Source: an uncultured Bacteroidaceae bacterium (lineage in GTDB: Bacteria; Bacteroidota; Bacteroidia; Bacteroidales; Bacteroidaceae). Taken from it: 64,000 nucleotides of DNA. Where the stretch lies: positions 1 to 64,000 of the forward strand of contig CAJOEI010000001.1 of NCBI GenBank assembly GCA_905233465.1. The letters run 5' to 3'. A model generated the notes under the pieces. It saw only the letters and a list, made by a program, of their open reading frames with translations. It was not told the DNA's origin and did no database searches. Below are positions 22,107-63,853 of this stretch, piece after piece (the first letter of the stretch is position 1; every line of letters starts with the position of its first letter). The translations under genes and the position numbers were made by a program.

Positions 22107-22110
22107 CGTT

Positions 22111-22184
22111 TCAATTTTCAACTCTCAACTTTCAATTTTCAACTTTCGCCTTTCAACTCTCAACTCTCAACTCTCAATTCTCCC
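22111..22184. repeat. CAACTTTCAA/CAACTCTCAA-type repeat filling the uppS–bamA junction
   Basis: The plus strand carries degenerate 7-8 bp units (TTTTCAA, CTCTCAA, CTTTCAA), about nine in a row. It runs from the last codons of uppS, whose stop lies within it, almost to the bamA start. A shorter run of the same family lies at 36139-36160. Confidence 0.8.
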
Positions 22185-33749: not shown

Positions 33750-33758
33750 TGTTTATAG

Positions 33759-33828
33759 GAAATCCTAGGAAACCCTAGGAAACCCTAGGAAACCCTAGGA
33801 AGACCTAGGAAATCCTAGGAAAACCTAG
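33759..33828. repeat. 10-bp tandem repeat with CCTAGG core
   Basis: Seven units of about AACCCTAGGA, with variants AATCCTAGGA and AGACCTAGGA, lie between murF and pdxB. Six CCTAGG palindromes occur at 33764, 33774, 33784, 33794, 33804 and 33814, exactly 10 bp apart, with CCTAGT at the right end. Confidence 0.92.
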
Positions 33829-33840
33829 TCTCACTAGCTT

Positions 33841-35148
33841 CTATAGTATTTCTGGCAGCTCGTGTAGACGAGTGCCATTGGAGCCTTTGATGAGTATCAG
33901 TCGGTGTTCGGGGCGTGAAGTGGCTATACAGCTCTTCACAGCTGCCACATCGGGGAAGCATGTCACACGCGCATCGTTCTGTGCAGCTGCCGCCTTGCCG
34001 AACTCCTCGCCCACGAGCCAGATGGTCTTGGCATCGCTGGCCAAGGCTGCTGACAGCACACGGGTGTGTTCGCTTGCGCTCTCTGCACCCAGCTCGCGCA
34101 TGTCGCCGAGGATGAGCATCTTGTGTGCGTGACGCATGTTGCAGAAGTTGTCCAAGGCTGCCATCATAGATGTCGGGTTGGCATTATAGGCATCCACGAT
34201 GAGCTCGTTTGTTGCCGTGCGGCGCAGCTCCGAGCGTCCGAGGCTGGGCACATAGTCTGTCAAAGCCGCGTTGATGTCCGTTGCTGCTACTCCGAAGTGC
34301 GAGCCCACGGTGGCGGCAGCACGCACGTTGGCCATGTTATATCGTCCCACGAGATGTGTCTGGACGCGGTGTCCGTGACCCTCGCTGTCGATCCATGTCA
34401 TGCTCATCTCGGCACCGCTGTCGGCGCTGATGGCACCCGGCACATAGCGCACGATGTGCTCGGCTGCGAAGCCGCGTTCGGAGGCCATGGCCATCAGGTC
34501 GGTGTCGTCGCCGTTGACAAACAGCGTGCCGTCGTGTGCCGACAGGTAGTCGTAGAGCTCACCCTTGGTGCGCTTCACGCCGTCAAACGAGCCGAAGCCC
34601 TCAAGATGTGCGCGGCCCACATTGGTCACTAAGCCGCAATCAGGCTGCACTATGCGTGTCAGAGCGGCTATCTCGCCAGGATGGTTGGCACCGGTCTCGA
34701 TGATGGCCACCTCGTGTTCTGGCCGCAGACGCAGCAGTGTCAGCGGCACGCCGATATGGTTGTTCAGATTGCCCTGCGTGTACAGCACGCGGTAGCGGCG
34801 GCTCAGCACGGCAGCCAGTAACTCCTTAGTCGTCGTCTTGCCGTTGGTGCCCGTCACCTGCAGCACCGTGCCGCGGAAGCGGCGGCGATGTTCCGCTGCG
34901 AGCTCCTGTAGCGTGGTCAGCACATCGGGCACCAACAGTGCGCGGTCGCCAAGGCGCTCTGCCACGGCAGCGTCGTCAACCACCGCCACGGCGCAGCCCG
35001 CAGCCACCGCCTGCTCGGCGTATGCATTGCCGTCGAAACGCTCGCCACGAAGGGCAAAAAACATGCTCCCTGCCGCCGGACGACGGCTGTCTGTGGTCAC
35101 CTCCTGATGCAGGAGATACACCTTATTATATATATATAGGCTGTCCAT
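33841..35148 (-). CDS. murF: UDP-N-acetylmuramoyl-tripeptide–D-alanyl-D-alanine ligase
   Basis: MurF adds D-Ala-D-Ala to the peptidoglycan precursor in the cytoplasm. 435 residues. The ATP loop VTGTNGKTTTKELLAAVL is at about residues 98-115; the Mur central-domain motif ETGANHPGEIAALTRIVQPD follows near residue 151, and VDAYNANPTSM lies near residue 316. Codons 4-7 fall in a (TA)6 tract. A promoter-like element lies about 30 bp upstream. Confidence 0.97.
   Translation of the reverse strand: MDSLYIYNKVYLLHQEVTTDSRRPAAGSMFFALRGERFDGNAYAEQAVAAGCAVAVVDDAAVAERLGDRALLVPDVLTTLQELAAEHRRRFRGTVLQVTGTNGKTTTKELLAAVLSRRYRVLYTQGNLNNHIGVPLTLLRLRPEHEVAIIETGANHPGEIAALTRIVQPDCGLVTNVGRAHLEGFGSFDGVKRTKGELYDYLSAHDGTLFVNGDDTDLMAMASERGFAAEHIVRYVPGAISADSGAEMSMTWIDSEGHGHRVQTHLVGRYNMANVRAAATVGSHFGVAATDINAALTDYVPSLGRSELRRTATNELIVDAYNANPTSMMAALDNFCNMRHAHKMLILGDMRELGAESASEHTRVLSAALASDAKTIWLVGEEFGKAAAAQNDARVTCFPDVAAVKSCIATSRPEHRLILIKGSNGTRLHELPEIL
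35127..35138. repeat. (TA)6 tract in the first codons of murF
   Basis: Twelve alternating T/A bases encode LYIYN of MDSLYIYNKVYLL, seven bases inside the start codon. Confidence 0.85.
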
Positions 35149-35289: not shown

Positions 35290-36135
35290 ATGACAATTAA
35301 CATCCGAGGACGATTGATGTCGCTTGATGAGCCCATAGTGATGGGCATCATCAACGCTACACCCGACTCCTTCTACGCGCCCAGCCGCGTAGAAGCTATA
35401 GAGTCTATAGAGTCTATGGAGTCTATGGAGTCTATTGCCTCTATAGAGTCTATGGCCCGCAGGCATCTCGACGAAGGTGCCGCCATCCTTGATGTTGGAG
35501 CCTGCAGCACGCGGCCGTCGTCGGCCCCTATCTCCGAGGCCGAGGAGCTGGCGCGCCTCGATGCTGTGCTGCCCGCCTTGCGCCGTGCTTGCCCTGATGC
35601 TATCGTCAGCGTTGACACTTTTCGTCCTGCCGTGGCGCGGCATTGTGCCGAGCGCTACGCTATCGACATCATCAACGACATCTCCGGCGGCTCACCCGAC
35701 ATGTTCTCTACTGTTGCTGATCTCCGCCTTCCCTATATCCTGACATATAACGCCGCCTCTACGACGGCAGAATCACCCTCCCCTTCCGCGGCTGCCCGCT
35801 ATCTCGCCGAGCGCCTCCAGACGCTGAACGACCTCGGTGCCACGGATGTCATACTCGACCCAGGCATAGGCTTTGGCCAGACACCGGAGCAGAGCTTCGC
35901 TATCCTCGCGGCACTGCCGCAGCTCATCGCTGCCTTCCCCAACAGCCCCTGGCTTGTGGGACTGTCGCGCAAGCGCATCGTCTACCAGACACTTGGCATC
36001 ACACCCGACGAGGCCCTCAACGGCACCACGGTCCTCAACACCATAGCCCTGCAAGCCGGCGCACATATCCTCCGAGTCCACGACGTGCGTCCCGCCAGGG
36101 AATCCATTACATTACTGCAGGCAATGAAAGCATAA
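35290..36135 (+). CDS. folP: dihydropteroate synthase with an in-frame repeat insertion
   Basis: FolP joins para-aminobenzoate to the pterin pyrophosphate in folate synthesis and is the sulfonamide target. The chosen ATG at 35290 gives 281 residues (MTINIRGRLMSLDEPIVMGI). Motifs: GIINATPDSFY (about residues 19-29), ILDVGACSTRPSS, DIINDISGG and LVGLSRKR. Right after the first motif, in the segment that normally forms the first helix, seven 9-bp units encode EAI-ESI-ESM-ESM-ESI-ASI-ESM. The product is close to family length, so the repeat may have replaced native sequence, not only added to it. The catalytic motifs are intact, so activity is likely but untested. Confidence 0.95.
   Translation: MTINIRGRLMSLDEPIVMGIINATPDSFYAPSRVEAIESIESMESMESIASIESMARRHLDEGAAILDVGACSTRPSSAPISEAEELARLDAVLPALRRACPDAIVSVDTFRPAVARHCAERYAIDIINDISGGSPDMFSTVADLRLPYILTYNAASTTAESPSPSAAARYLAERLQTLNDLGATDVILDPGIGFGQTPEQSFAILAALPQLIAAFPNSPWLVGLSRKRIVYQTLGITPDEALNGTTVLNTIALQAGAHILRVHDVRPARESITLLQAMKA
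35392..35454 (+). repeat. 9-bp in-frame tandem repeat (GAGTCTATA) inside folP
   Basis: Seven units: GAAGCTATA, GAGTCTATA, GAGTCTATG twice, GAGTCTATT, GCCTCTATA, GAGTCTATG. The same nonamer family, with CTATAG core, forms intergenic arrays at 47011-47073 and 50747-50823. Confidence 0.92.
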
Positions 36136-36138
36136 TCC

Positions 36139-36160
36139 TTCAACTTTCAACTTTCAACTT
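36139..36160 (+). repeat. CAACTTT repeat between folP and the diadenylate cyclase gene
   Basis: Three copies of TTCAACTT in tandem lie directly before the next start codon, in the place of a ribosome binding site. Same family as 22111-22184. Confidence 0.75.
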
Positions 36161-36927
36161 TGTTCTTCTCTATCGGCATAAAAGACATCATTGACATCCT
36201 TCTGGTGGCCGTTTTACTCTACTACAGCTACCGACTGATGAAGGAGTCGCGCTCGCTGAACATCTTCTTCGGCGTGCTTGTCTTCATTGTCTTCTGGCTC
36301 TTCGTGTCCCAGATCCTTGAGATGCGACTGCTCGGTACGCTGCTCGACCGCGTTGTGAGCGTGGGAGCCATAGCACTGTTGATACTCTTCCAGGAGGAGA
36401 TACGCAAGTTCTTCTTCACCATAGGCACCCACCAGCGGGTGCGCTCCGCCGTGCGTTTCTTCAGCGGCGAGGAGAAGCAGACCCATACCCGTGAGGACAT
36501 CATGCCCATCGTGCGTGCATGCATGGCGATGTCCAAGCAGAAGATAGGAGCCCTCATCGTCATGCAGCGTTCGCTGCCGCTGAACGACTTCATCCGTTCG
36601 GGCGAGGTCATTGATGCCCGCATCAGCGAGCGCCTCATCGAGAATATCTTCTTCAAGAACTCTCCGTTGCACGACGGCGGCATGATCATCAGCCATAAGC
36701 GCATCGCCGCCGCGGGCTGTGTGCTGCCAGTGGCTCACGACACCACCATCCCCAAGGAGCTCGGTTTGCGCCACCGTGCCGCGATGGGTGTGAGCAAGGA
36801 AACCGATGCGCTGGCCATCGTCGTGAGCGAGGAGACAGGAAACATCAGCATCGCATTCCGAGGAGCCTTCCAGCTGCGCATCTCTGCCGAGGACCTGGAA
36901 CGCATACTCACTGAAGATGCCTTCTGA
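36160..36927 (+). CDS. dacA: diadenylate cyclase, CdaA/DacA type
   Basis: This membrane enzyme makes cyclic di-AMP from two ATP. 255 residues with a TTG start at 36160 (MFFSIGIKDIIDILLVAVLL); no earlier start fits. Three membrane segments cover about residues 10-27, 33-52 and 60-78. The DisA_N catalytic domain has NSPLHDGGMIIS (about residues 167-178; DGA is DGG here, as is common in the CdaA branch) and GLRHRAAMGVS (about 205-215). It follows folP by 24 bp and is probably co-transcribed. Confidence 0.93.
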   Translation: MFFSIGIKDIIDILLVAVLLYYSYRLMKESRSLNIFFGVLVFIVFWLFVSQILEMRLLGTLLDRVVSVGAIALLILFQEEIRKFFFTIGTHQRVRSAVRFFSGEEKQTHTREDIMPIVRACMAMSKQKIGALIVMQRSLPLNDFIRSGEVIDARISERLIENIFFKNSPLHDGGMIISHKRIAAAGCVLPVAHDTTIPKELGLRHRAAMGVSKETDALAIVVSEETGNISIAFRGAFQLRISAEDLERILTEDAF

Positions 36928-37346: not shown

Positions 37347-41888
<4,542 letters not shown>

Positions 41889-45844: not shown

Positions 45845-47005
45845 ATGAAAAAGATTCTTTTCTTCGTAGCTCTTCTGGCAACAGCTTTCACAGCTCAGGC
45901 CCAGGAGGCAGAGCCTCAGGGTGACTGGACAGAGACCAAGGTCGAGTTCGTTCCTCATCTCTTCCTGCAGCTCCAGGGTGGCGCAAGCTACACACTTGGT
46001 GAGGCTTCATTCAAGGACCTCATCTCGCCTGCTGCACAGATTGCATTAGGCTATCAGTTCAATCCCTGGTTGGGTCTGCGTCTGCAGGTCAGCGGTTGGG
46101 AGAGCAAGGGCGGCTGGCCCGCAGGCTATGCATTTGACAATGTTCAGAGCCCCGGCGATGCCTACACCTACAAGTGGAACTATGTTGCTCCAGGTCTTGA
46201 CCTGAAGCTGTCTCTGACCAACCTCATCGGTGGTTGGAATCCCGATCGTTTCTTCAACCTCGGTATCATCCTCGGTGGTGCTGCCAACATCGGTTTCGGC
46301 AACGACGAGGCACAGGACATCGCTTGGTTCCGTGGCATGAATCATCCTTACACCATGGCTCAGAACTACAAGAGCGACTACTATCTTGAGTATCTCTGGG
46401 ATGGCACCAAGGTTCGTCCCGTGGGCCGCATGGGTATCGATATGGACTTCCGCATCAGCGACCGCGTAGGTATCAACCTCGAGGCAAATGCCAATGTCCT
46501 CTCCGACAAGTACAACAGCAAGAAGGCTGAGAATCCCGATTGGTACTTCAACGCCCTGCTGGGTGTGAAGGTTGCCTTGGGCAAGACCGTGGAGCGCACT
46601 GTCATCGAGCACAAGGCTCCCGTGGTCATTCCCGATCCCGAACCAGATCCAGAGCCTGAGAAGCCTGTCATCATCAAGAAGCCCACTATGCGCACTGAGA
46701 TCTTCTATGCTATCCGCGAGACCATCGCTGTCGGCGTAGAGGAGCAGAAGCTGAACGAGCTCATCAAGTTCCTGAAGGAGAACCCCTCCACCAAGGTCAG
46801 CGTGACTGGTTATGCTGATGCTGGCACAGGTAACCCGAAGATTAACGAGATGTATGCTTCACAGCGTGCCGCCAATGTAGCCAAGGCTCTTGTTGACGCT
46901 GGTATCGCTGAGAGCCGTATCACTGTTGACAGCAAGGGTGACACCGTGCAGCCGTTCGCCGAGAACGACAAGAACCGCGTTACCATCGCTATCGCTGCTG
47001 AGTAA
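45845..47005 (+). CDS. OmpA-family outer-membrane protein
   Basis: 386 residues with a signal peptide (MKKILFFVALLATAFTAQAQ). Residues ~35-250 form a probable beta-barrel (VEFVPHLFLQLQGGASYTLG). A Pro/Asp/Glu hinge (IPDPEPDPEPEKP) leads to a C-terminal OmpA-like peptidoglycan-binding domain: VSVTGYADAGTGNPKINEMY, ASQRAANVAKALVDAGI and ENDKNRVTIAI. It would tie the outer membrane to the cell wall. A 9-bp repeat array and a terminator follow. Confidence 0.9.
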   Translation: MKKILFFVALLATAFTAQAQEAEPQGDWTETKVEFVPHLFLQLQGGASYTLGEASFKDLISPAAQIALGYQFNPWLGLRLQVSGWESKGGWPAGYAFDNVQSPGDAYTYKWNYVAPGLDLKLSLTNLIGGWNPDRFFNLGIILGGAANIGFGNDEAQDIAWFRGMNHPYTMAQNYKSDYYLEYLWDGTKVRPVGRMGIDMDFRISDRVGINLEANANVLSDKYNSKKAENPDWYFNALLGVKVALGKTVERTVIEHKAPVVIPDPEPDPEPEKPVIIKKPTMRTEIFYAIRETIAVGVEEQKLNELIKFLKENPSTKVSVTGYADAGTGNPKINEMYASQRAANVAKALVDAGIAESRITVDSKGDTVQPFAENDKNRVTIAIAAE

Positions 47006-47010
47006 GCTTA

Positions 47011-47073
47011 GCTATCGCGGCTATAGAAGCTATAGATGCTATAGAGACTATAGAGTCTATAGAAACTATAGAA
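47011..47073. repeat. 9-bp tandem repeat (GCTATAGAA type) after the ompA-like gene
   Basis: Seven units in series: GCTATCGCG, GCTATAGAA, GCTATAGAT, GCTATAGAG, ACTATAGAG, TCTATAGAA, ACTATAGAA. Each intact unit contains the CTATAG palindrome. It starts 6 bp past the stop codon. Confidence 0.92.
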
Positions 47074-47087
47074 GCAAAAAACAATAT

Positions 47088-47158: not shown

Positions 47159-50100
47159 ATGAAACGAATCTATACATACGCTTCGGCTTTGTTGCTGACG
47201 TTTGGGCTCACAACCGGTGTATATGCCGGAACAGGTGAGCTCATGTCGCTTTCAGGCACTGAGGTGATGATGACAGATGACGACCCACCTTCAGGTGACC
47301 CCTCAGGTGATCCTTCAGGTGACCCCACTCCCGTCCATGAGATGGTTGGCGAAGGTACTTTGGCCAATCCTTATACTGTTGAGGATGTCAATGCCCTTGA
47401 TCTCACTGATGAAGGTATTGAGAAGCAGGGCCTATGGGTTAAGGCTAAGATCTACGGCTATGTTGATGGTGCAACTTTCAACTACACCTCTATTGTCACC
47501 TCTGCCGTGATGCCCGAGGATCAGACTATCTACAACCTTGCTCTTGTTGATGCTGCTTATACTACCGTTCCCGATGGCCCTGCTTTGACACAGCTGATGC
47601 CTGTGCAGCTTGTTGGCTCGTCGTTGGATAACGCCAAGGCTAAGGATGCGTTGAATCTGGCAGACAACGCTACTCTGCTCGGCACCGTCGTGTATCTCTA
47701 TGGTGACTTGATGACCTATAAAGGCGTAAACGGTATCGGTAATATCGAGAAGTGGAGCTTCGACGGCACTGAAGTCTTCCCTGCTGTTCTTCCGCCTGAG
47801 CCCGTCAACACAAGCTATAATCTTTGGCTTGGAAAGACTCAGGTTACGACAGAGAATGCCTCTAACATCACCGACAACTGTCTAACTCAAGGCACAGCTC
47901 GTTATGACGCATCGACTAACACACTGTATATGACATCAACAGTGTGTAAGTTCTTTGCCGCAGATCGCTCAGGGTATGCTATTACCAACCAGATTGATGG
48001 CCTGACAATTGTCTATGAGGGTGTCAACCAAATCCAAGGTCAGGCACTTCTCTGCGAGGCCAACACCACATTGAAGGGAAACGGCACAAGTCCAAAGTTG
48101 TCTATTTCCGGTGGTTACAATATCCGTTGTTATGACCACGCGCTGACAATCAAGGATATGACAGTGACTGTTTCCAGTTCGACCGGTGCTCCTATTGATG
48201 CTCGCAACGGTACTATCACTTTTGATAAGTGTACGTTCTCCGTGACAGCTAATCCGCCTGTGCTGCGCGCCAGCCAGGAGCCGACATTTATCGATTGCCG
48301 CATCATCTTCTCTACACCTGCTGATCCGTACTTTGATGTGGCATCTGGCATGTACAAGGCATTGGACAATGGTGTTATCACCAATGTCGGCACTATAACC
48401 GTCAGCACTGGTTCTGCACCCACCACCCGTCAACAGTGTGGCTTCACTCTGACCAACTCCAGTAGCACGTTCATTGTGTTGCCTGGCAAGGAGTCGTCGT
48501 TCGTCGCTCCCAAGGCATCCTGCGTGAGCGGCTACGATGGTGTGATTTCCTACGCCAGCAGTGATCCGAGTGTGATTTCTGTACACAATACCAATGGTGA
48601 CCTGACCTTCCATAAGGCAGGTTCAGTGACTATCACCATCACAGCATCCGAGACGGCGAACTACTATGGTGCTACGGCCCGTTACCGCATCAGCTACGGC
48701 AAGGCCGATCCCGATGTTCACTTCTCGCAGGAGAGATATAGCTTCTCGTATGAGTCCATCACCATCGGCGATGCCGAAGTGCTATATGCTATGCAGACGG
48801 GTGACGGTGCCATCACCTACACCTCGTCCAACAACGAAGTCGTCTGGGTAGATGCTCACGGTGGCATTCACCTCGGCTTGCCCGGTACGGCAACCTTTAC
48901 GGCTACGTCGGCTGAAACGAACAACTACTATTCTGGCACAGCAACGTGCACCGTGATTATCAGCGACAACCCGACAGCAGGTCTGTACTTTGATGATCCT
49001 GAGTTCACCGTGGTCTATGGTCAGGAAGCAAGCTTCGTATCGCCGAGGGTTCGCTATGGTCAGGGCTATAGCGGCCTCATCACTTACGCCACCAGCAATC
49101 CTCAGATAGCCACCGTGGATGCCAACACCGGTGTGGTGACCTTCGTGAAGCCTCTTGGCGACGTGGAGATCTCCGCCACGGCAGCTGCCACGACAGGCTT
49201 TGAGGGTTCAAGTGCCAAGTATACCATCCACTACGAGCGTGCTGCAGGCCAGCTGGCCTTTGCTGCTGCAAGCGTCAACTGCCGTCTGGGTGACGGCGTG
49301 GTACGCCTGCCTGAGTTCTCTATACAGAAGGGCGACGGTACCATCACCTATACCAGCAGCAATACTGCCGTGGGTACCGTGGATGGCGCTACACGCACTG
49401 TGACGCTGAAGAGCGCCGGCACGACGCGCATCACTGCCACCATGTCCGCAGGCACATACTACAAGGGTGCCAAGTCGGTGTGTGACATCAATGTCAGTTC
49501 CGAGGGTGGACAGTCTGTGAGCACTCTTGCCGTGTCGCCCACCTCAATCGCTATGACTGTGGATGGCGGCGAGAAGACCGTGACTGTGCAGAGCGATGCT
49601 GATTGGACAGTCACTTCCAGCGAGACCTGGTGCACAGTGTCGCCGAACATAGGTAGCGGCAACGGAGCCTTCATCATCAAGGTGACACAGAACACCAGCA
49701 CTGACACCCGCACAGCAGAGGTGACAGTGAAGACCGTGTCGCAGAGTCTGGCCATCGCAGTCTCTCAGGCCGGCACAACCATCACCCCGCATACCGCCAA
49801 GACCCCGACGCTCATCGTGCGTCCGTCTGTCCTGTCGATAGAGATGGGCGGTCAGGATTCTACCCTGCCTATCGTGATGGTGAACTACAACGGCGACGGT
49901 GCCATCTCTATGGAGACCGACAACGTAGCTGTTCTGCGCGCCAAGTCTGACGGCACCATGCATGTCGTGGGCGGCGGTGAGGCCAAACTGAAGATCAAGA
50001 CGGCTGCCACTGACGACTTCCTCGCAGCCGAGGTGGAGATACCTGTCACCGTGAAGGTGAAGGATCCCGATCCCGTCAGCGATGTTGCAGCCATCAGCGG

Positions 50101-50746
50101 CAACGTGACAATCACGTTTGCTAACCTCGCAAACCTCGACATGAGCACTGGTGGCACTGATGGCGATATCTACTACAGCCTGAATACCGACATCAGCGTG
50201 GGCGATGGATACTATCCTTCTAACCAGTCGCTGATCCTGAACTCCACGATGACCGCAGACCAGATGCAGGAAATCGTCGGTCAGTCGCTGATTGACGTTG
50301 ACGAGGACGGCGTGTTCCGTGGTCTCATCTTCAAGGTTCCAGCAGGCAGTGGCACTATCGAGTTCGACTACCAGACAGGTGGCACACACGCACTGAACGT
50401 GAAGGTGGGCAATGCCAATGCTGCACCTAACATGTCAACGTCGCGCGCACATCTGAGCGTGCCCTACACAGTATCAGCACCGACATACGTGTATGTCTAT
50501 GCTACGGATGTCGCAGCTCAGGCTAAGTCCAGCTTGCTGAGCGTGCGTCGTGTTCCCGTGCTGAAAGCCAACAGTGTGCAGCTCTTCAACCTGAAGATTA
50601 ACACAACTCCCAATGGTGTGAAGGGCGTCTACATGGAAGACTCTGATGTCGATCTCTACAATGTAGGTGGTCAGCGCGTTGCATCGCGCAACGCCCGCCA
50701 CGGAGTGTTCATCGGCACTGATGGCAGCAAGACGGCTGTGAAGTGA
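47159..50746 (+). CDS. large secreted protein with DUF6359, Ig-like and BACON parts
   Basis: 1195 residues with a signal peptide (MKRIYTYASALLLTFGLTTG then VYAG). A short PSGDPSGDPSGDP repeat at residues ~42-56 leads to a DUF6359-like OB domain (GEGTLANPYTVEDVNALDLT to GIGNIEKWSFDG). Residues ~240-400 look like beta-helix sequence. From ~420 to 780 there are about four Big_2/MBG-like Ig repeats (GDGAITYTSSNNEVVWVDAH; GDGTITYTSSNTAVGTVDGA). A BACON domain lies near residues 785-870 (DADWTVTSSETWCTVSPNIG). The C-terminus (LYNVGGQRV ... GVFIGTDGSKTAVK) is like that of the 993-residue protein. A surface or secreted adhesin-like role is inferred. Confidence 0.82.
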   Translation: MKRIYTYASALLLTFGLTTGVYAGTGELMSLSGTEVMMTDDDPPSGDPSGDPSGDPTPVHEMVGEGTLANPYTVEDVNALDLTDEGIEKQGLWVKAKIYGYVDGATFNYTSIVTSAVMPEDQTIYNLALVDAAYTTVPDGPALTQLMPVQLVGSSLDNAKAKDALNLADNATLLGTVVYLYGDLMTYKGVNGIGNIEKWSFDGTEVFPAVLPPEPVNTSYNLWLGKTQVTTENASNITDNCLTQGTARYDASTNTLYMTSTVCKFFAADRSGYAITNQIDGLTIVYEGVNQIQGQALLCEANTTLKGNGTSPKLSISGGYNIRCYDHALTIKDMTVTVSSSTGAPIDARNGTITFDKCTFSVTANPPVLRASQEPTFIDCRIIFSTPADPYFDVASGMYKALDNGVITNVGTITVSTGSAPTTRQQCGFTLTNSSSTFIVLPGKESSFVAPKASCVSGYDGVISYASSDPSVISVHNTNGDLTFHKAGSVTITITASETANYYGATARYRISYGKADPDVHFSQERYSFSYESITIGDAEVLYAMQTGDGAITYTSSNNEVVWVDAHGGIHLGLPGTATFTATSAETNNYYSGTATCTVIISDNPTAGLYFDDPEFTVVYGQEASFVSPRVRYGQGYSGLITYATSNPQIATVDANTGVVTFVKPLGDVEISATAAATTGFEGSSAKYTIHYERAAGQLAFAAASVNCRLGDGVVRLPEFSIQKGDGTITYTSSNTAVGTVDGATRTVTLKSAGTTRITATMSAGTYYKGAKSVCDINVSSEGGQSVSTLAVSPTSIAMTVDGGEKTVTVQSDADWTVTSSETWCTVSPNIGSGNGAFIIKVTQNTSTDTRTAEVTVKTVSQSLAIAVSQAGTTITPHTAKTPTLIVRPSVLSIEMGGQDSTLPIVMVNYNGDGAISMETDNVAVLRAKSDGTMHVVGGGEAKLKIKTAATDDFLAAEVEIPVTVKVKDPDPVSDVAAISGNVTITFANLANLDMSTGGTDGDIYYSLNTDISVGDGYYPSNQSLILNSTMTADQMQEIVGQSLIDVDEDGVFRGLIFKVPAGSGTIEFDYQTGGTHALNVKVGNANAAPNMSTSRAHLSVPYTVSAPTYVYVYATDVAAQAKSSLLSVRRVPVLKANSVQLFNLKINTTPNGVKGVYMEDSDVDLYNVGGQRVASRNARHGVFIGTDGSKTAVK

Positions 50747-50823
50747 TAGAGCTATAGAAACTATAGACTCTATAGAGACTATAGAAACTATAGTGGCTAT
50801 AGAGAGACTATAGCTGCTATAGA
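50747..50823. repeat. 9-bp tandem repeat (NNCTATAGA) after the 1195-residue protein gene
   Basis: About eight units: AGCTATAGA, AACTATAGA, CTCTATAGA, GACTATAGA, AACTATAGT, GGCTATAGA, GAGACTATA, GCTGCTATA. It starts immediately after the stop codon and ends 14 bp before the next terminator. Confidence 0.92.
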
Positions 50824-50837
50824 AAAAGATTCTACAT

Positions 50838-63776: not shown

Positions 63777-63786
63777 CGGTATTGAT

Positions 63787-63853
63787 TAACAGATTAACAA
63801 ATTAACACGTTAACATGTGCAGCTTGTTAATCTGTTAATTTGTTAATCTGTTA
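63787..63853 (+). terminator. AT-rich terminator-like inverted repeat after rpsO
   Basis: A perfect 21-bp inverted repeat built of TTAACA/TGTTAA units (63787-63807 with 63833-63853) starts 10 bp past the stop and is followed by TTTCG. Confidence 0.75.

Follow-up and report, generated by a model that had tools for sequence, protein, structure and literature searches.

We analysed the first 64,000 nucleotides (the window) of contig CAJOEI010000001.1 in GenBank assembly GCA_905233465.1, the genome of an uncultured Bacteroidaceae bacterium (2.54 Mb in 57 contigs, 84.8% complete). Tandem arrays of a 9-bp unit built on the palindrome CTATAG lie in this DNA both between genes and inside folP, the gene for dihydropteroate synthase (DHPS), and comparison of the genes that neighbor such arrays shows that one family, encoding four-helix-bundle proteins, adjoins them in many species. 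Genes were called with a small custom script based on codon usage, repeats were delimited with Tandem Repeats Finder (TRF), and the features from which the argument starts are as follows.

35317..36135, + strand: folP (dihydropteroate synthase) with an in-frame array; Pfam Pterin_bind, PDB matches and AlphaFold model
35396..35453, + strand: CTATAGNNN array inside folP, in frame; TRF and codon reading
47012..47072, + strand: CTATAGNNN array past the stop of an OmpA-family gene (45845-47005, Pfam OmpA), followed by a terminator-like hairpin (by eye); TRF
50746..50825, + strand: CTATAGNNN array past the stop of gene 47159-50746, followed by a terminator-like hairpin (by eye); TRF

An in-frame array in folP

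The folP product matches Pfam Pterin_bind (E 2.6e-49) and DHPS in the PDB (E 1.1e-35), and its AlphaFold model, with a mean predicted local distance difference test score (pLDDT) of 94.2, has E. coli DHPS (9p5i_A, template modeling (TM) score 0.83) as its best PDB match. The preliminary description of this DNA had reported a nonamer array lying in frame inside the gene, and both TRF, which gives a period-9 array at 35396-35453 with 6.4 copies and 85% matches, and the codons confirm it. These read ATA GAG TCT twice, ATG GAG TCT twice, ATT GCC TCT, ATA GAG TCT and ATG, giving the peptide IES IES MES MES IAS IES at residues 28-45 of an array that spans residues 28-46, as numbered from the ATG at 35317. 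Among the seven units the exact core is present in three, two of them adjacent, with CTATGG in three and CTATTG in one. In the model, the array residues run from where loop 1 ends, through a short turn of helix, into the beginning of helix 37-52 (block pLDDT 74, 83 and 95, respectively), and invariant residues are nearby.

We searched for folP in 41 genomes, four of which gave no match, and aligned 31 loci, namely the best 30 matches and that of genome G003. Because none of the 30 other aligned loci carries an ESI or ESM peptide at this spot, the outcome that the preliminary description had set against its own proposal, such a peptide encoded by non-repetitive codons in homologues, is not seen there. 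In this alignment the array follows loop 1 only in the source genome, and other inserts follow it in G002, G019 and G016. Moreover, 10-residue repeats occur at this loop-helix spot in the folP proteins P0025 and P0027, whose inserts measure ~32 and ~44 residues, and G003 (locus L068) has an insert of ~24 residues at another position. Since relatives carry other inserts at the same spot, the folP insert sits where length varies in the clade, and on the evidence of model and alignment its location is a predicted indel-tolerant loop-helix junction. A tripeptide-repeat pattern of at least 3 units is found in 3 of the 120 listed folP relatives, these being the source protein, that of G018 and P0022. 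The repeats of the latter two stand at the C-terminus; the G018 protein, with no array after loop 1, ends in IEAIDAIDAIDAIEAINRKS. These comparisons bear on the idea that the insert is an enzyme adaptation, selected for an effect on substrate or drug binding, as its position next to loop 1, with invariant residues close by, might suggest; given that unrelated inserts occupy the same spot in relatives, and that the repeat also occurs in other proteins and in other folP C-termini, we regard this idea as very improbable.

Heptad arrays (TTTCAAC/TTCAACT), another post-stop repeat type of the source genome, lie at or just past stop codons at 22109-22177 and 36139-36161 of the window, the second beginning 3 bp after folP.

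The CTATAG family

The repeat is not peculiar to folP. TRF finds arrays of the same nonamer at 47020-47075 and 50752-50825, in both of the intergenic places named in the preliminary description, and the genome-wide link between coding and intergenic repeats that it had called for emerged from a scan of the whole genome for the nonamer. With up to 2 mismatches, CTATAGANNCTATAGA has 35 matches on the two strands of the window, compared with a mean of 0.19 and a largest value of 2 in 100 shuffles. With up to 3 mismatches, CTATAGANNCTATAGANNCTATAG has 108 forward and 93 reverse matches in the whole genome, where the reversed pattern has 0 and 1, and we collected 21 places with CTATAG arrays in this genome. 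Comparisons were extended to 139 genomes of the genus and to 393 sampled genomes of the order; reversed patterns have 0 matches in both scans. Forty-six viral stretches contain a CTATAG triple.

For the unit itself, the period of nine stands as first described, but the palindrome CTATAG followed by three mostly variable bases is the better description. We pooled 175 CTATAG arrays from several species, at least two of which are duplicates (G018:C3, as L279 and L087; G020:C2, as L294 and L202), and detection by exact cores biases this pool in favor of core conservation. In the 53 arrays with at least 6 units, core columns differ between neighboring units by 0.5-1.1% and the spacer columns by 22, 56 and 49%. 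A less biased comparison sets 550 exact-core triples at 9-bp spacing against 43 pairs of successive cores that are separated by a decayed unit, at 18-bp spacing, and 768 of 859 successive cores within 45 bp are spaced 9 bp. When all 64 six-base palindromes are compared over 1.08 Mb of loci, mostly selected for CTATAG, the next best after CTATAG reaches 4 period-9 triples. In addition, arrays at the same place in L088 and L134 agree in all four cores and in 2 of 9 spacer bases, and array length differs by two units between the close relatives L093 and L114. This whole-unit change, together with the presence of the family in 41 of the 139 genus genomes, supports the earlier suggestion that the repeat can spread or expand. 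Spacer triples shared between loci number 1 in the source genome (0.4 expected), where block copying of arrays between loci was rejected on this count, and 9 in G018 (2.2 expected), whose arrays also contain spacer strings that recur within them.

A four-helix-bundle gene paired with the arrays

In the source genome, the family that adjoins the arrays is represented by P0121, the 252-residue product of a "four helix bundle suffix" gene outside the window (G000:C34:38064-38822), which has CTATAG arrays 24 bp upstream of its start and 3 bp past its stop and a biotin/lipoate ligase-family gene, not rRNA, as its neighbor. The protein matches TIGR02436 and TIGR04258 above cut-off, and its N-terminal part also matches PF05635. 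Its TIGR04258 score is 63.3 bits, and that of a second paralogue in the same genome is 76.5 bits, the curated cut-off being 40 bits. The suffix domain spans 49 residues and is followed by a long C-terminal helix. The model of P0122, the form of P0121 that begins two residues further in, consists of helices only, the last of them long (mean pLDDT 87.6, predicted TM score 0.66); its nearest folds are the S23-family structures 2gsc and 2rld, with target TM scores of up to 0.88 and 0.77, none of the matches reaching E 0.001. The string DRTxDQMxQAARSGKQNIxEG is nearly invariant in 59 rows of the family, which is present in 91 of the 139 genus genomes and in 49 of the 393 sampled order genomes. No phage record matches the protein, and a phage origin was rejected for this reason. 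A single record in the plasmid collection, a 568-kb replicon of Prevotella nigrescens, encodes a homologue (54.5% identity) followed by four CTAG-centered, CCTAGG-like units spaced 9, not 10 bp; this locus is weakly compatible with a pairing of gene and arrays.

The arrays are paired with this gene, as is seen from both directions. Starting from arrays, a homologue occurs in 11 of 119 array-selected loci and stands beside the array in 10 of them (that of L193 being a fragment, and L085 the exception). Starting from the gene, 22 of 30 loci selected by the suffix domain have an array no more than 350 bp away (periods of 8-11 or small multiples of these being counted), versus 6 of 44 control loci (folP 3 of 21, OmpA 3 of 23; P 3e-7), and arrays lie on both sides of the gene in 8 of the 30. 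Within the same loci, arrays of period 9-10 near the gene outnumber those far from it by 45 to 6 in the genus and by 16 to 0 in the order, the corresponding counts being 2 to 3 for folP control loci and 0 to 1 for OmpA control loci. Flanking arrays are direct, not inverted, in all nine informative cases among 12 loci with arrays on both sides. Moreover, core type follows the protein tree: in 54 loci fetched by gene alone, 31 proteins could be labeled with six core classes, which require 5 changes on the tree, the minimum possible, compared with a mean of 16.1 for shuffled labels (0 of 200 shuffles as low as 5). At the level of genomes, and with gene-flanking arrays counted, CTATAG arrays are present in all 7 genomes whose homologue has 75% identity or higher versus 34 of 132 others (P 1.3e-4), and in 11 of 13 with one of at least 59% versus 30 of 126 others (P 2e-5), a correlation with the gene that CCTAGG arrays (5 of 7) share. 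Finally, in one genus of a different family, G105, G209 and G365 each have one or two CTATAG triples, and every one of these stands beside a TIGR04258 match. The cognate gene alters what the repeat is taken to be.

Placement of the arrays

Among the 175 pooled arrays, 111 lie between genes of the same direction, convergent pairs enclose 17 and divergent pairs 9, 16 are in genes, and 22 are too close to a locus edge to be placed. The 111 arrays have median distances of 15 bp from the upstream stop and 73 bp to the next start, and 69 of them begin within 20 bp of the stop, where 45.8 (standard deviation 3.5) would be expected under even placement in the gap with the 25 bp before the start kept free. 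This expectation shows that free space accounts for part of the post-stop placement, as it should if the arrays were self-driven microsatellites, expanding by slippage at core hairpins during replication under low constraint and only incidentally linked to the gene. The whole-unit length difference between close relatives and the repeated spacer strings of G018 are also of the kind that slippage would produce. Against this, one palindrome of 64 accounts for nearly all period-9 triples (in loci chosen for CTATAG), the reversed patterns are absent from the genus and order scans, and slippage explains neither why arrays flank one gene family nor why labels match the tree. Slippage without a partner gene is disfavored by the gene linkage, that is, the 22 of 30 loci, the tree match and the near and far counts, and we consider it improbable.

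All 16 in-gene arrays read ATA GNN NCT, which encodes I-(D/E/A/V)-(S/T/P/A) repeats, and none uses the other open frame (P 3e-5 against one half), in support of the earlier proposal that a 9-bp period is tolerable in a coding frame. Examples, both from G018, are the array in a UvrA-family protein (with a UvrA interaction domain) and that at the folP C-terminus. In-frame arrays also lie at apparently different sites in two homologous proteins (64% identity) of L284 and L146, the former being UvrA-family. Seventy-five arrays lie near a stop. Twenty-five of these keep its register (1 in 9 expected, P 2.7e-7), the stop being an in-register TAG in 23. We rejected the notion that the arrays act as in-frame tandem stop codons; the simplest account is that such an array runs over the end of the gene and thereby provides the stop.

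Whether the arrays are sites of regulation is addressed by their orientation and by the conservation of their places. If the four-helix-bundle protein were a regulator only, the arrays would be its DNA or transcript-end binding sites, immobile and held by selection both near the genes under its control and around its own gene, and the folP copy would be a chance in-frame site or an operator within a coding sequence. The retention of the core while spacers change is consistent with this, as are the arrays that flank the gene, on a single side or on both, and the folding of arrays as RNA hairpins (z scores of -2.4 for the array at 47012..47072 plus its hairpin and -10.9 for that at 50746..50825, terminator hairpin included). 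In addition, an array between tRNA-Trp and a conserved gene, which we take to encode EF-Tu, keeps its place in L087, L145 and L110 with changed spacers. Nevertheless, none of 18 relatives has a CTATAG array after the OmpA-family gene in the stretch read, so that a conserved array at this place was rejected, and orientation relative to the upstream gene is even, with 57 sense, 52 antisense and 2 ties, and on this count an RNA element of fixed orientation was rejected. The in-frame arrays within unrelated proteins and the many array-bearing genomes with no detected close gene also speak against regulation as the sole role, and we therefore judge it rather unlikely.

CCTAGG arrays and other repeats

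Two further features of the window, both at the end of a gene with Mur_ligase domains (33841-35148, - strand; presumably murF), introduce a second core.

33841..33846, - strand: lone CTATAG core comprising the TAG stop of the Mur ligase gene; sequence
33756..33828, no strand assigned: CCTAGG+NNNN array of period 10, 12 bp past the stop of the Mur ligase gene; TRF

Exact CCTAGG cores recur every 10 bp at 33764-33814. As a question set beforehand, we looked for arrays at the second TIGR04258 paralogue of the source genome and found CCTAGG+NNNN arrays of period 10 on both of its sides, the family to which the array at 33756-33828 belongs. The CTATAG-type unit is thus written CTATAGNNN and the CCTAGG-type unit CCTAGGNNNN. 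CCTAGG triples occur in at least 33 of the 139 genus genomes, and G002 has 43 of them and no CTATAG triple. Within the genus the CCTAGG period is 10, so these arrays cannot stay in frame. Among the matches listed, none of 27 non-edge CCTAGG arrays from seven genomes lies in a gene versus 16 of 153 CTATAG arrays, a difference in the expected direction that is not significant (P 0.135). Paralogues adjoin arrays of other palindromes, namely CCTAGG, ACTAGT and CTTAAG, and further TIGR04258 genes, at loci L299-L328, accompany period-9 arrays of partly palindromic units such as GTCAGACTT and TCGGAGTAC. These units suggest more protein-core pairs than the six labeled classes.

Other repeats were noted in the window. 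Two 8-bp arrays (GATTAACA and TGTTAATC) at 63784-63853 stand in inverted order 7 bp past a stop and could form a long hairpin. At 1614-1701 there are 22-bp units (GAGTCCATGTGCGTGGACTCAA) with one palindrome each, and the same word follows the CTATAG array of L073, on another contig, just after 7940. A nonamer array (CAAGGGCGA) at 37868-37959 encodes a collagen-like GDK repeat in a predicted 1513-residue protein.

Interpretation

The explanation that we favor, with a probability of roughly two in three, is that these are dispersed palindromic tandem arrays paired with a four-helix-bundle protein that is not a recognized transposase, in the manner of repetitive extragenic palindromes (REPs) and their REP-associated tyrosine transposases (RAYTs), and that folP holds one copy. 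On this explanation, the CTATAG family, a fixed 6-bp palindrome plus three free bases, is the partner of the four-helix-bundle gene, whose protein may recognize its own core as DNA or as a transcribed hairpin. Copying, binding or protection by the protein would make the arrays spread and keep the core intact, and array length would then shift by whole units. Copies that fall in a coding region, in the single frame that is tolerated there, would survive in linkers, loops or C-termini as the I-(D/E/A/V)-(S/T/P/A) repeat. The folP array would be such a case, copied into or expanded within a loop-helix junction where indels are tolerated and relatives hold other inserts, and it would then need no special selection.

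Several observations weigh against this explanation. The models past cut-off for the protein are PF05635, TIGR02436 and TIGR04258 alone, and no nuclease, transposase or polymerase domain was recognized. In the tree test, 23 of the 54 loci were dropped for want of an exact palindromic pair, and nine of the 31 labels depend on one pair. The TIGR04258 matches of G105 and G365 are short open frames of 82 and 74 residues, and the triples of G235, G381 and G407 are not beside a listed TIGR04258 match. Because CCTAGG arrays are also common in 5 of the 7 genomes with the CTATAG-type gene, gene presence alone shows no specificity. Outside the genus, an array is near the gene in 11 of 29 gene loci, although all 16 arrays of period 9-10 there are near it, and spacer order in the source genome gives no sign of block copying between loci. 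Finally, 30 of the 41 array-bearing genus genomes have no detected homologue that reaches 59% identity over 150 residues. One of them, G018 (80% complete), lacks any TIGR04258 match despite its 60 CTATAG triples, and G016 and G437 likewise have arrays with no such match. Incomplete assemblies, or arrays that have outlived their gene, could explain these genomes. In REP systems, arrays may outlive their gene.

Because the array places are mostly unshared and the orientation is even, we lean slightly toward a protein that spreads the arrays over one that reads them as control sites or transcript-end hairpins. A broader generalization is tentative and, in our estimate, falls somewhat short of even odds: TIGR04258 proteins may be makers or movers of short palindromic tandem arrays, a system unrelated to known transposases and comprising many protein-core pairs in the order, that places arrays after stops and sometimes in frame within essential proteins, DHPS among them.

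Comparison with known systems

We found no report of repeats paired with the TIGR04258 family in the literature searched, mainly openly accessible journals. The separate repeats found beside related genes suggest an undescribed system that ties such proteins to short DNA repeats. If the favored explanation is true, a family of unknown function gains a testable nucleic-acid target, and the many copies of one short tandem repeat in some bacterial genomes are explained. Repeat DNA can also turn into the protein sequence of essential enzymes, because translation can pass through arrays whose period is a multiple of three.

By protein, the nearest relatives are in the 23S rRNA intervening-sequence (S23) family (PF05635, TIGR02436): the N-terminal part matches both models, and the nearest solved folds, 2gsc and 2rld, are of this family. 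The TIGR04258 suffix, the long C-terminal helix and a gene that is not in rRNA set the protein described here apart. We also presume a family resemblance to Avd, the accessory protein of diversity-generating retroelements; no reverse transcriptase chain is among the 50 fold matches listed, although no search aimed at such an enzyme was made.

By position, the nearest known repeats are the GGGNATC heptads of Xanthomonas and Nostoc, which are short, tandem and structure-forming and lie between aligned genes within 50 bp of stops (PMC4692102); those repeats are G-rich, 7 bp long and quadruplex-forming, and their abstract gives no cognate gene. The TAACTGA heptamers of Beggiatoaceae, cyanobacteria and five Bacteroidetes are likewise short tandem repeats, dispersed and confined to few lineages, and some lie at or within coding-sequence ends, but in their main genome they lie mostly just upstream of start codons; mobility is suspected, and the abstract describes no transfer mechanism (PMC4679880). 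All of these heptad families (STRR, GGGNATC and TAACTGA) have a 7-bp unit, in contrast to the 9 bp (CTATAG) and 10 bp (CCTAGG) found here.

By organization, the closest parallel is REP/RAYT, described as palindromes scattered between genes, a transposase gene flanked by cognate repeats, several related protein-repeat types, and an abundance of the cognate repeats that goes with presence of the gene (PMC2817692). The arrays share with it the scattered intergenic palindromes, the flanking of the protein gene by cognate repeats, and a repeat type that tracks protein type (5 changes for six classes, 31 of 54 loci labeled). They differ in consisting of tandem arrays of 9-10 bp units, in having direct rather than inverted flanking arrays, and in a protein that is no IS200/IS605-related tyrosine transposase but has an all-helical model with S23-like nearest folds. 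Although it fails two defining features of REP/RAYT, the transposase and the inverted flanks, the system works most like REP/RAYT.
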